Shown: positions 37 to 39,359 of the stretch, piece by piece
How the letters are laid out: every line of letters starts with the position of its first letter
Numbering within the stretch: position 1 is the first letter of the stretch
DNA from: Acidobacteriaceae bacterium
Lineage (GTDB): Bacteria > Acidobacteriota > Terriglobia > Terriglobales > Acidobacteriaceae
Length of the DNA stretch: 57,661 bases
Reading direction: 5' to 3'
NCBI GenBank assembly: GCA_003131585.1
Contig: PKVW01000054.1
Location: 1-57,661, forward strand
Program-made: the position numbers and the translations under genes
The notes under the pieces: generated by a model
The model's database searches: none
What the model was told of the DNA's origin: nothing
Seen by the model: only the letters and a program-made list of their open reading frames with translations

Positions 37-165
37 CACCATGCCGTCCCACTCCGCTAACTCGTTGGGGCTCAAGATTTTGCCCCTAACTCATTGCAGC
101 CCATAGATTAAATCGCAAAATCCCGCCAAACCCATGATTCCAATAGATCGTGGGGGAGGGGGTAG
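37..165 (+). repeat. CTAA-unit / ATTCCAATAGA / G-tract leader, copy 1
   Basis: Two degenerate units beginning CTAACTC lie upstream of a core reading CATGATTCCAATAGA, followed by GGGGGAGGGGGTA. The tract ends ten bases before the ATG of the zinc-finger gene at 175. The same arrangement recurs near 39.1 kb. Its function is unknown; it could be a 5' leader, a mobile-element end or a G-quadruplex-forming site. Confidence 0.6.
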
Positions 166-174
166 GAGATCACC

Positions 175-1011
175 ATGCCAAATTTCCCGAATCGGTGTCA
201 GCACATCAAAGTCAACGGCACCCTGTGCGGATCGCCCGCCCTGCGCCGCAACCGCTTCTGTTACTTCCACAAGCTCCACCACGAAGAGCGCATCGAACTC
301 AACCTCGACCGGCTCAAACTCGACCGGCTCAAAGATGACCGCGCCCGCCGTCGCCGCAACGTCACCATCGACCTTCCCGTCCTCGAGGATGCCAACTCCA
401 TCCAGGTCTCGCTCATGCAGATCATGCGCCTGATCGTTGCCGGACAGATCGACGGCAAAACCGCCGGCCTCCTGCTCTACGCCCTGCAAACCGCCAGCTC
501 TAACCTTGCCCGCACCAGCTTCGAGCCCTACATGCACAATGTCGTTCTCGACCTGAAAACCGTCCATGAAACTCCACTCAGCGCGCACATCTGGGAAGAC
601 TCCGATTTCCGCACTGCCGAAGACGATGAAGAGGTCATGCGCGCCCAAGCCCTCGAAGAAGCCCAGCGCAAAGCCAGAAAGAAAGCTGAACTCGACCGCT
701 GGGCCGAAGCCGAAGCCAACCGCCTTATAGAAGAGGGCAGGCGAGAACACGAAGCCCGTCGCCAGGCCGCAGCCCGAAATCAAGCGGCAGGCCCCGCCGC
801 CGGCGTCACTAAAAACGCGACCCCCACCGTAATCCCCGCCGCACGGGCCGTCCTCCCACCCGCGCAAACCGCACAACCGCCCCGCAAGCGTCCTCCCGCG
901 AACGTGAACATGGATGAAGTTAGGAAAAACGTCAGCGATCAAATCAGAAGGGCGCTCCCCGCCATCGCCGCCGCCCAATCGGGCAGAGAAAATGGGAATA
1001 GCACCGGATGA
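175..1011 (+). CDS. Zinc-finger (WRC-spacing) protein of unknown function
   Basis: A 278-residue protein of unknown function. Residues 8-32 carry Cys8, Cys18, Cys29 and His32, i.e. the spacing C-x9-C-x10-C-x2-H, which matches the plant WRC-type zinc finger and resembles short phage-borne zinc knuckles. A basic stretch (residues 33-62) follows, then a helical middle (80-150), a charged Glu/Lys/Arg/Ala-rich probable coiled coil (150-195) and a low-complexity Ala/Pro tail. DNA or RNA binding is a reasonable inference but unproven. The ATG at 175 is preceded by GGAG at 164-167. The gene sits directly behind a repeat leader whose second copy, at 39.1 kb, has no such gene. Confidence 0.75.
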   Translation: MPNFPNRCQHIKVNGTLCGSPALRRNRFCYFHKLHHEERIELNLDRLKLDRLKDDRARRRRNVTIDLPVLEDANSIQVSLMQIMRLIVAGQIDGKTAGLLLYALQTASSNLARTSFEPYMHNVVLDLKTVHETPLSAHIWEDSDFRTAEDDEEVMRAQALEEAQRKARKKAELDRWAEAEANRLIEEGRREHEARRQAAARNQAAGPAAGVTKNATPTVIPAARAVLPPAQTAQPPRKRPPANVNMDEVRKNVSDQIRRALPAIAAAQSGRENGNSTG

Positions 1012-38635: not shown

Positions 38636-38724
38636 GCGCCGCTTTTGGGTGGCGCCGCTTTTGGGTGGCGCAGCGCTTCAGCGCTGCGATAAGAAGCAAG
38701 ATAAATTGCGGGCTTCAGCCCCCG
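38636..38724 (+). repeat. REP-like copy F with 16-bp duplication
   Basis: GCGCCGCTTTTGGGTG is duplicated at 38636-38667 and followed by the palindrome GCAGCGCTTCAGCGCTGC and by GCGGGCTTCAGCCC. It shares about 49 bases with copy G. Confidence 0.85.
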
Positions 38725-38890
38725 AGATACCATTCGCCGATTTAGGCTGGACGGACTTGAATACTCACCCTCACCCTCTGTCATCCCGACCGGAGCTTTG
38801 CCTTCCGAAGGAAGGCGAAGCGAAGTGGAGGGACCTGCTGTTTGTTTGGGAGCGCCGGGAAGGCCCGGAGCGCCACGAACGTCGCAGCAC

Positions 38891-38997
38891 CGTGGAAGAG
38901 CGGCGATTCAGCACACCTTTGGGGTGGAGCAGCTTTTGGGTGGCGCAGCGCTTCAGCGCTGCGATAAGAAGCAAGATAAATGCGGGCTCTCGCCCCC
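38891..38997 (+). repeat. REP-like copy G
   Basis: Starts with a GTGGAAGAGCGGCGATTCAG half-site, then repeats the GCTTTTGGGTGG and GCAGCGCTTCAGCGCTGC parts of copy F, then TGCGGGCTCTCGCCC. It looks like a composite of two sub-types. Confidence 0.8.
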
Positions 38998-39103
38998 AAA
39001 TATTTCCACAACCCAACTGTGACATCTGACCTTGCGCCCACGAATAAATCGCGCGATGATGGTCGAGGCCATGACGGTTGGGTGAACCCAACTCGTCGCG
39101 CCT

Positions 39104-39213
39104 CTAAGTCCTTTGTTTCACGGATTTTAGTATCTAAGTTCTTTGACATCCGGATTTTACGGGGAATTTCCTGCTAACCCAATGATTCCAATAGACCCCA
39201 GGGGGGAGGGGGT
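39104..39213 (+). repeat. CTAA-unit / ATTCCAATAGA / G-tract element, copy 2
   Basis: Two 30-base-spaced units start CTAAGTCCTTTG (39104) and CTAAGTTCTTTG (39134), each with GGATTTTA. A third part reads CTAACCCAATGATTCCAATA, followed by GGGGGGAGGGGGTA. The core ATGATTCCAATAGA matches copy 1 exactly. The zinc-finger gene is absent here. Confidence 0.7.
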
Positions 39214-39359
39214 ATCGTGCATTGAGTTGCTGAGCACCCCAACGGTCGCACCTCGGCAAGCTTCTTCGCAGAATTTTTTTCGGCCAGATATTCACAATAC
39301 AGAACTGGGTCCGCTCTCTGTGCCCCGCTCCCCTTGCGTACAATGGATGCTGAAACCAC

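Follow-up and report, generated by a model that had tools for sequence, protein, structure and literature searches.

A dispersed repeat linked to a zinc-finger gene family of Acidobacteria

Among bacteria, REP/RAYT pairs are the usual example of a gene that stays together with a dispersed repeat of its own. Can a gene whose product is a zinc-finger protein stand in a similar relation to a repeat? The question is raised by the window analysed here (bases 1–57,661 of contig C1, in a 3.93-Mb genome of 75 contigs), where a sequence-only reading had proposed a tie between a zinc-finger gene and the short repeat array preceding it.

The leader and its gene in the window

Because the window opens at the first base of its contig, the 5′ part of the gene's leader is missing. 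The remainder confirmed the proposed layout between 57 and 175: CTAACTC units lie at 57–63 and 86–92, and two CTAA-type units are followed by a third carrying the core, then by the G-tract, the Shine-Dalgarno-like TAGGAG and the ATG at 175, which a ten-base gap separates from the G-tract (Table 1). A second copy of the gene, on C58, is 97.5% identical to that of the window over 473 bp, with divergence beginning two bases past the stop codon. Contig C1 begins inside the leader and C58 ends inside this gene copy, so both assembly breaks fall in the duplicated unit.

The recurrence of core and G-tract at 39.1 kb, without the gene, was also borne out. There the core has one mismatch (AATGATTCCAATAGA, 39181–39195) and is accompanied by GGGGGGAGGGGGTA, within a copy made up of a CCACA-containing 5′ end, promoter-like blocks, units, core, G-tract, variable tail and 3′ end motif; tblastn with the family proteins (L089 entry) found no family protein encoded around it. 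Different intergenic palindromic repeats, GCGCAGCGCTTCAGCGCTGCG, are located just upstream of this copy (window 38640–39000).

Table 1. Features of the repeat and the zinc-finger gene in the window
Feature	Position	Strand	Basis
Leader array unit 1, CTAACTCGTTGGGGCTCAAGATTTTGCCC	57..85	+	Sequence; aligned with 20 dispersed copies
Leader array unit 2	86..126	+	Sequence; aligned with 20 dispersed copies
Unit 3 including core CATGATTCCAATAGA (133–147)	127..147	+	Sequence, genome pattern search, alignment with 20 dispersed copies
G-tract GGGGGAGGGGGTA	152..164	+	Sequence; genome search of core plus G-tract
Match of repeat profile R1 in the leader	57..163	+	62.6 bits, E 9.4e-17
TAGGAG, putative Shine-Dalgarno-like sequence	163..168	+	Sequence; function inferred
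Zinc-finger gene, 278 aa, A-type subfamily	175..1011	+	ORF, homologues, alignment; third-position excess versus 4 relatives
C8-x9-C18-x10-C29-x2-H32 motif	196..270	+	ORF translation; alignment
Conserved, predicted helical hairpin, residues 73–111	391..507	+	Alignment; predicted structure
Gene-free dispersed B-type copy, ~304 bp (locus L089)	38997..39300	+	Sequence, R1, alignments
R1 match (units, core, G-tract) in the 39.1 kb copy	39104..39212	+	96.9 bits

The Cys/His spacing first read in the protein proved correct, and the three Cys and one His ligands are invariant in 43 aligned sequences. The same alignment revealed a conserved segment after the ligands, LPxLEDANSIQ...LYALQTASxNL, which is predicted to form a helical hairpin. 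Outside the hairpin the predicted structure, whose confidence is low overall (pTM 0.37), shows long helix and low-confidence stretches; we recognised no catalytic domain in it, and a Foldseek search with it returned nothing at E ≤ 0.001. Between the window gene and four relatives, differences are most frequent at third codon positions (for example, 84 versus 54 and 45 over 273 codons), consistent with a gene that is translated but fast-evolving.

We found no confident relative of the protein in Pfam, NCBIfam, PHROG, PADLOC or PDB sequences. PHROGs gave two weak matches of unknown function, for one of three members searched. The window protein matched PF19067 (DUF5763) with E 0.32 and PF09329 (primase-type zinc finger) with E 0.27, both below the curated cut-offs, and a zf-primase match appeared in 9 of the 43 members (best E 0.00098). 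In line with the first reading, no transposase motif was recognised in the protein: Y1_Tnp was matched neither by the window protein in Pfam and NCBIfam nor by the 43 members in Pfam. Relatives detected by protein, at 59 loci, come from MAGs labelled Acidobacteria, Acidobacteriaceae, Acidobacteriales, Terriglobia or Candidatus Sulfotelmatobacter; a search of 24 genomes outside the genus gave no family hit. The family proteins fall into three subfamilies: A-type (CQHIKVNG...RRNRFCYFH), B-type (DVPRCQHVKVNG) and C-type (CTHIKVNGIRCGSPSLRG). No description of the gene family was found in the literature searched, which included PMC6006769, PMC3733652 and PMC2817692 and left subscription journals mostly outside.

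Linkage and abundance of the repeat

A count of core plus G-tract across the genome had been set beforehand as a test of the proposal; it gave 11 places (reversed-pattern control 0), far above two copies. Allowing up to 3 mismatches raised this to 22 places (control 4), and the core 15-mer with at most 1 mismatch occurred 14 times in the 3.93 Mb (control 0). Because these counts exceed those of the reversed-pattern controls, recurrence of the core is not due to chance. We then used R1, a sequence-only profile of 20 dispersed copies that exclude the window leader. R1 found at least 73 matches at E ≤ 0.1 in the genome, among them the window leader and that of the C64 family gene; all R1 counts are lower bounds, with 150 of 714 first-look candidates scored in this genome and 84 per genome in the genus survey. 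Copy analyses took 68 of the 73 (leaving out the window leader, one tandem neighbour and three half copies) together with 60 of 98 copies of a relative, G030, making 128 entries; three copies split by insertion sequences counted as two halves each.

B-type copies have a common architecture of ~300 bp: a TTTCCACA-like 5′ end, TGTGACATCTGACCTTG, a spacer, ATCATGGTCGAGGCC, a variable stretch, the array, a tail and an end motif, the 3′ portion running through units, core, G-tract, TATCGAG and ~60 variable bases to AATTTATTT...GAAATTCACAG. The alignments of this type took copies with both end motifs, 17 of 18 such copies of the window's genome being placed in alignment A4. Pairwise identity averaged 0.97, 0.87 and 0.87 over the conserved blocks, of which there are three, and 0.68 over the end motif; the spacers averaged 0.55–0.58 and the tail 0.42. 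The spacer between TGTGACATCTGACCTTG and ATCATGGTCGAGGCC measured 21 nt in 15 of 17 copies and 22 nt in the other two. The CCACA-like motifs at the two ends are in direct orientation, and in alignments judged by eye neither terminal inverted repeats nor a target-site duplication was recognised. We infer that the first two conserved blocks resemble a promoter. We read the leader as part of a dispersed non-autonomous repeat family, with a full B-type unit of ~300 bp and a leader module of ~210 bp.

Structured RNA was considered as the nature of the element and rejected, since an Rfam scan of 17 loci (E ≤ 1) gave two Acido-Lenti-1 hits alone, both off the repeat element, and folding of six stretches as RNA (one of them, L104, on the strand opposite the core) and five as DNA was no better than that of shuffled sequences (z −0.9 to 2.2). 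The folding results lend no support to the suggestion of the first reading that the protein may bind a transcript of the repeat. The two Acido-Lenti-1 RNAs (RF01687) lie in repeat-bearing loci, at L032 1794–1839 and L060 3511–3552.

The family loci show the linkage of leader and gene, as the proposed link to this protein family had implied. In 45 of 59 loci R1 has a coding-strand match no more than 300 nt ahead of the gene, compared with 8 matches at all other positions in 319,574 bases; the upstream windows are 2.8% of the searched space. Copies in leader position are in direct orientation; five of the other eight are on the opposite strand and none is regularly placed. Fourteen loci had no match in leader position, two of them starting less than 250 nt from the locus edge. 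Among 33 further family loci (partly of the same species), 26 of 27 R1 matches were in leader position, at 25 loci. R1 recognises the array even in very divergent subfamilies. By inspection, A, B and C proteins accompany different leader types; each type, again by inspection, also occurs as gene-free copies, and weak gene-free R1 matches lacking the G-tract resemble the C-type leader.

Abundance of the repeat goes with presence of the gene, in a statistic that ignores phylogeny. Copies were present in 35 of 45 genus genomes, at 0–82 each (R1, lower bounds), and two genomes outside the genus had 0 R1 copies. For the 37 of these 45 genomes taken into the copy-versus-gene test, family hits correlated with R1 copies (Spearman 0.59, p = 1e-4, ignoring phylogeny and incompleteness). 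The median was 13.5 copies in the 22 genomes with an A/B-type hit (best E ≤ 1e-14) versus 1 in the other 15 (p = 2e-5, phylogeny again ignored), and the same contrast held among genomes at least 90% complete (13 versus 7 genomes, p = 4e-4). There are exceptions, several of them incomplete genomes: five without any family hit hold 1–6 R1 copies, G006 has 7 copies and, as its sole family hit, a fragment with an internal stop, G035 has C-type hits alone and 5 copies, and G009 has a B-type (A/B-type) hit yet 0 copies.

We read the locus, with a probability of about one half, as a REP/RAYT-like gene-coupled repeat, in which the protein is a candidate repeat-binding factor and a different activity spreads and homogenises the copies. 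The repeat would form the promoter and 5′ region of the zinc-finger gene family, the conserved TGTGACATCTGACCTTG and ATCAT 21–22 nt further probably marking the promoter. The zinc finger would bind the array of CTAA units, control its own gene and mark the dispersed copies. Spread and homogenisation would be the work of a trans-acting enzyme or of recombination between arrays, with the zinc-finger protein as an accessory or protector rather than the catalyst.

Alternatively, a dispersed repeat may have inserted upstream of an ancestral gene, become its promoter and been co-inherited with it, the protein having nothing to do with repeats. We consider this unlikely, though a serious contender. 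Leader and gene stand together at like places in two species (L056/L057 and L060/L061, by eye, with downstream sequence common to each pair), a catalytic domain was not recognised in the protein, and a few copies persist in some genomes that gave no family hit. However, copy number follows gene presence, C-type leaders are unlike A/B leaders, and the very divergent subfamilies retain a recognisable array, all of which could still be phylogenetic.

Placement and possible copying and exchange

The copies are mainly intergenic, 5 of 128 entries lying inside a called ORF. Genes neighbouring them were called by a hexamer score trained on 21 window ORFs, and distances to these genes are therefore rough.

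Copies resemble those of their own genome: the nearest copy was found within the same genome for 45 of 50 copies in G000 and 53 of 60 in G030 (shuffled mean 0.50), and in the close pair G004/G017 copies match mostly across the pair. Whole units occur at two places with unrelated flanks (294 bp in G000, 94% identical; 426 bp in G030, 93%), and end at, or a few bases from, the 3′ CACA motif. Duplicated leader modules of 207–215 bp, 90–95% identical (L091/L098, L090/L093, L092/L107 and L090/L099), begin near the 5′ end motif and extend to the G-tract, and the tails beyond them and the flanks are unrelated. The similarity within a genome may stem from homogenisation rather than from new insertions.

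At least 100 nt of flank is common to a copy of the window's genome and one of the 60 G030 copies in 24 of 68 entries (orientation the same in 20, inverted in 1 and mixed in 3), and many copy positions are therefore inherited. G004 and G017 have in common 8 of the 15 copies fetched from each; at these places conservation of the array does not clearly exceed that of the flank downstream. A 1.8-kb query covering copy L107 and its surroundings found matches in all 45 genomes, mostly via one flanking gene or the repeat itself, and R1 was detected in 3 of 28 fetched loci, the window's genome included; at the ~65–82% flank identity of these loci an exact empty site or target duplication was not readable. 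A combination of old positions with some new copies and a homogenised leader module accounts best for these data. Apparently the same place holds different repeat subtypes in the window's genome and in G030 at C62:94502, C65:8997, C30:21616 and C56:3927; the first of these, compared with G030 C74:21901, has a C-type-like array in one species and the G-tract type in the other.

The copies of G000 are clearly mosaic, those of G030 weakly so. When the closest relative of each of the 17 G000 B copies was sought by second spacer and by tail, the two results agreed in 0 of 17 (1 of 17 with ties kept), against 9 of 17 (ties kept) for the two 5′ spacers. Both ends were recognised in 23 of 60 G030 copies, of which 7 agreed, versus 9 of 23 in the internal control. 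The 5′ spacers and 3′ tails of the G000 copies, differing in their nearest relatives, look re-assorted at the unit array. It is conceivable, if distinctly doubtful, that a new class is involved, in which a non-catalytic zinc-finger DNA-binding protein maintains its own promoter array and drives its copying and shuffling; the leader module, from 5′ end motif to G-tract, would be pasted over or exchanged between copies, with the CTAA array as the exchange point.

Improbable, to our mind, is an autoregulated regulon, with the dispersed copies serving as operators or promoters of other genes under the zinc-finger protein. Conserved blocks alternating with variable spacers of constant length are promoter/operator-like, some copies lie close upstream of genes and many positions are common to two species, but in both genomes analysed the copies are oriented at random with respect to their neighbouring genes (13/17/16/17 and 10/17/14/18) and copy number ranges from 0 to 82 within one genus. 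A promoter regulon of the neighbours is rejected on the balanced orientations.

It is very improbable that solo copies are leaders remaining after gene loss. Solo copy C50:45951 of the window's genome and the full gene copy L062 of G003 do share 1,177 nt of downstream flank (83%), and the gene is therefore present in one genome and absent in the other. However, tblastn with the first 130 residues of 43 family proteins gave 5 hits in the 128 entries, four being the gene itself directly downstream and one a gene more than 1 kb away, and among 28 family loci the 900 nt following the gene contained the 3′ end motif of B copies in two, with one mismatch each; gene relics are thus largely against the data. 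That Y1/RAYT-type transposases of the genome move the repeats, the zinc-finger gene being coincidental, has hardly any probability, since of the 14 places with Y1_Tnp (RAYT/IS200-like) hits (L362–L375, 13 above the cut-off) none has an R1 match within 1.5 kb, with which action in trans remains compatible.

The genome also has 11 hits to IS1595-family transposases, five of them between the two halves of one repeat element (C33, C14, C35, C4 and C12; loci L119, L120, L121, L117 and L132, respectively) and two more, on C47 and C3, near one repeat half. Perfect 8-bp duplications flank such insertions, CTGCTAAC on C33 and C14 and TATCTAAG on C4, and IS1595 therefore inserted at the starts of CTAA units.

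Comparison with known systems

If the reading of a gene-coupled repeat with a repeat-binding protein is true, this would be a second independent gene–repeat pairing, in which a zinc-finger protein takes the place of the transposase. Binding of the repeat, its copying and the reason for which the host retains it would then become separate questions, and this uncharacterised protein family of soil Acidobacteria would gain a ligand that can be tested.

The spacing of the WRC domain is C-x9-C-x10-C-x2-H. The sequence-only reading had spoken of WRC spacing; the spacing indeed matches, whereas the domain is unsupported by Pfam, where WRC was hit neither by the window protein at E ≤ 1 nor by the 43 members at E ≤ 0.05. 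The Cys/His stretch is also weakly similar to DUF5763 and the primase-type zinc finger, but scores of the window protein stay below the curated cut-offs and the rest of it is unmatched. Like MITEs, the repeats are small, non-autonomous and dispersed between genes, and some recur with unrelated flanks; unlike MITEs, they have direct end motifs, terminal inverted repeats were not recognised by eye, and no parent transposon was recognised.

The comparison with REP/RAYT is the closest, although membership is rejected. A RAYT gene is flanked by two inverted repeats, according to PMC2817692, and a REP is a palindrome of 20–40 bp according to PMC3733652. In contrast, no HUH/Y1 domain was recognised in the zinc-finger protein, the repeat lies on one side of the gene, as a leader, with no inverted flanking pair, and the unit is ~300 bp long, with a multi-unit array and a G-tract and no significant hairpin folding. 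Of the REP/RAYT-like tie first proposed, what stands is the linkage, at 45 of 59 loci, and an abundance that follows the gene. The Acidobacterial repeats are, like REPs, dispersed, intergenic and similar within a genome. Correspondence of repeat and protein groups is a further RAYT hallmark, which the A, B and C leaders and proteins, judged by inspection, may show. REPs are more abundant where their cognate gene is present (PMC2817692); here, with phylogeny ignored, abundance of the repeat follows a cognate gene that bears the repeat at its own border (medians 13.5 versus 1, 22 and 15 genomes). Finally, REPs are described as targets of insertion sequences (PMC1525189), and the Acidobacterial repeat is such a target for IS1595.
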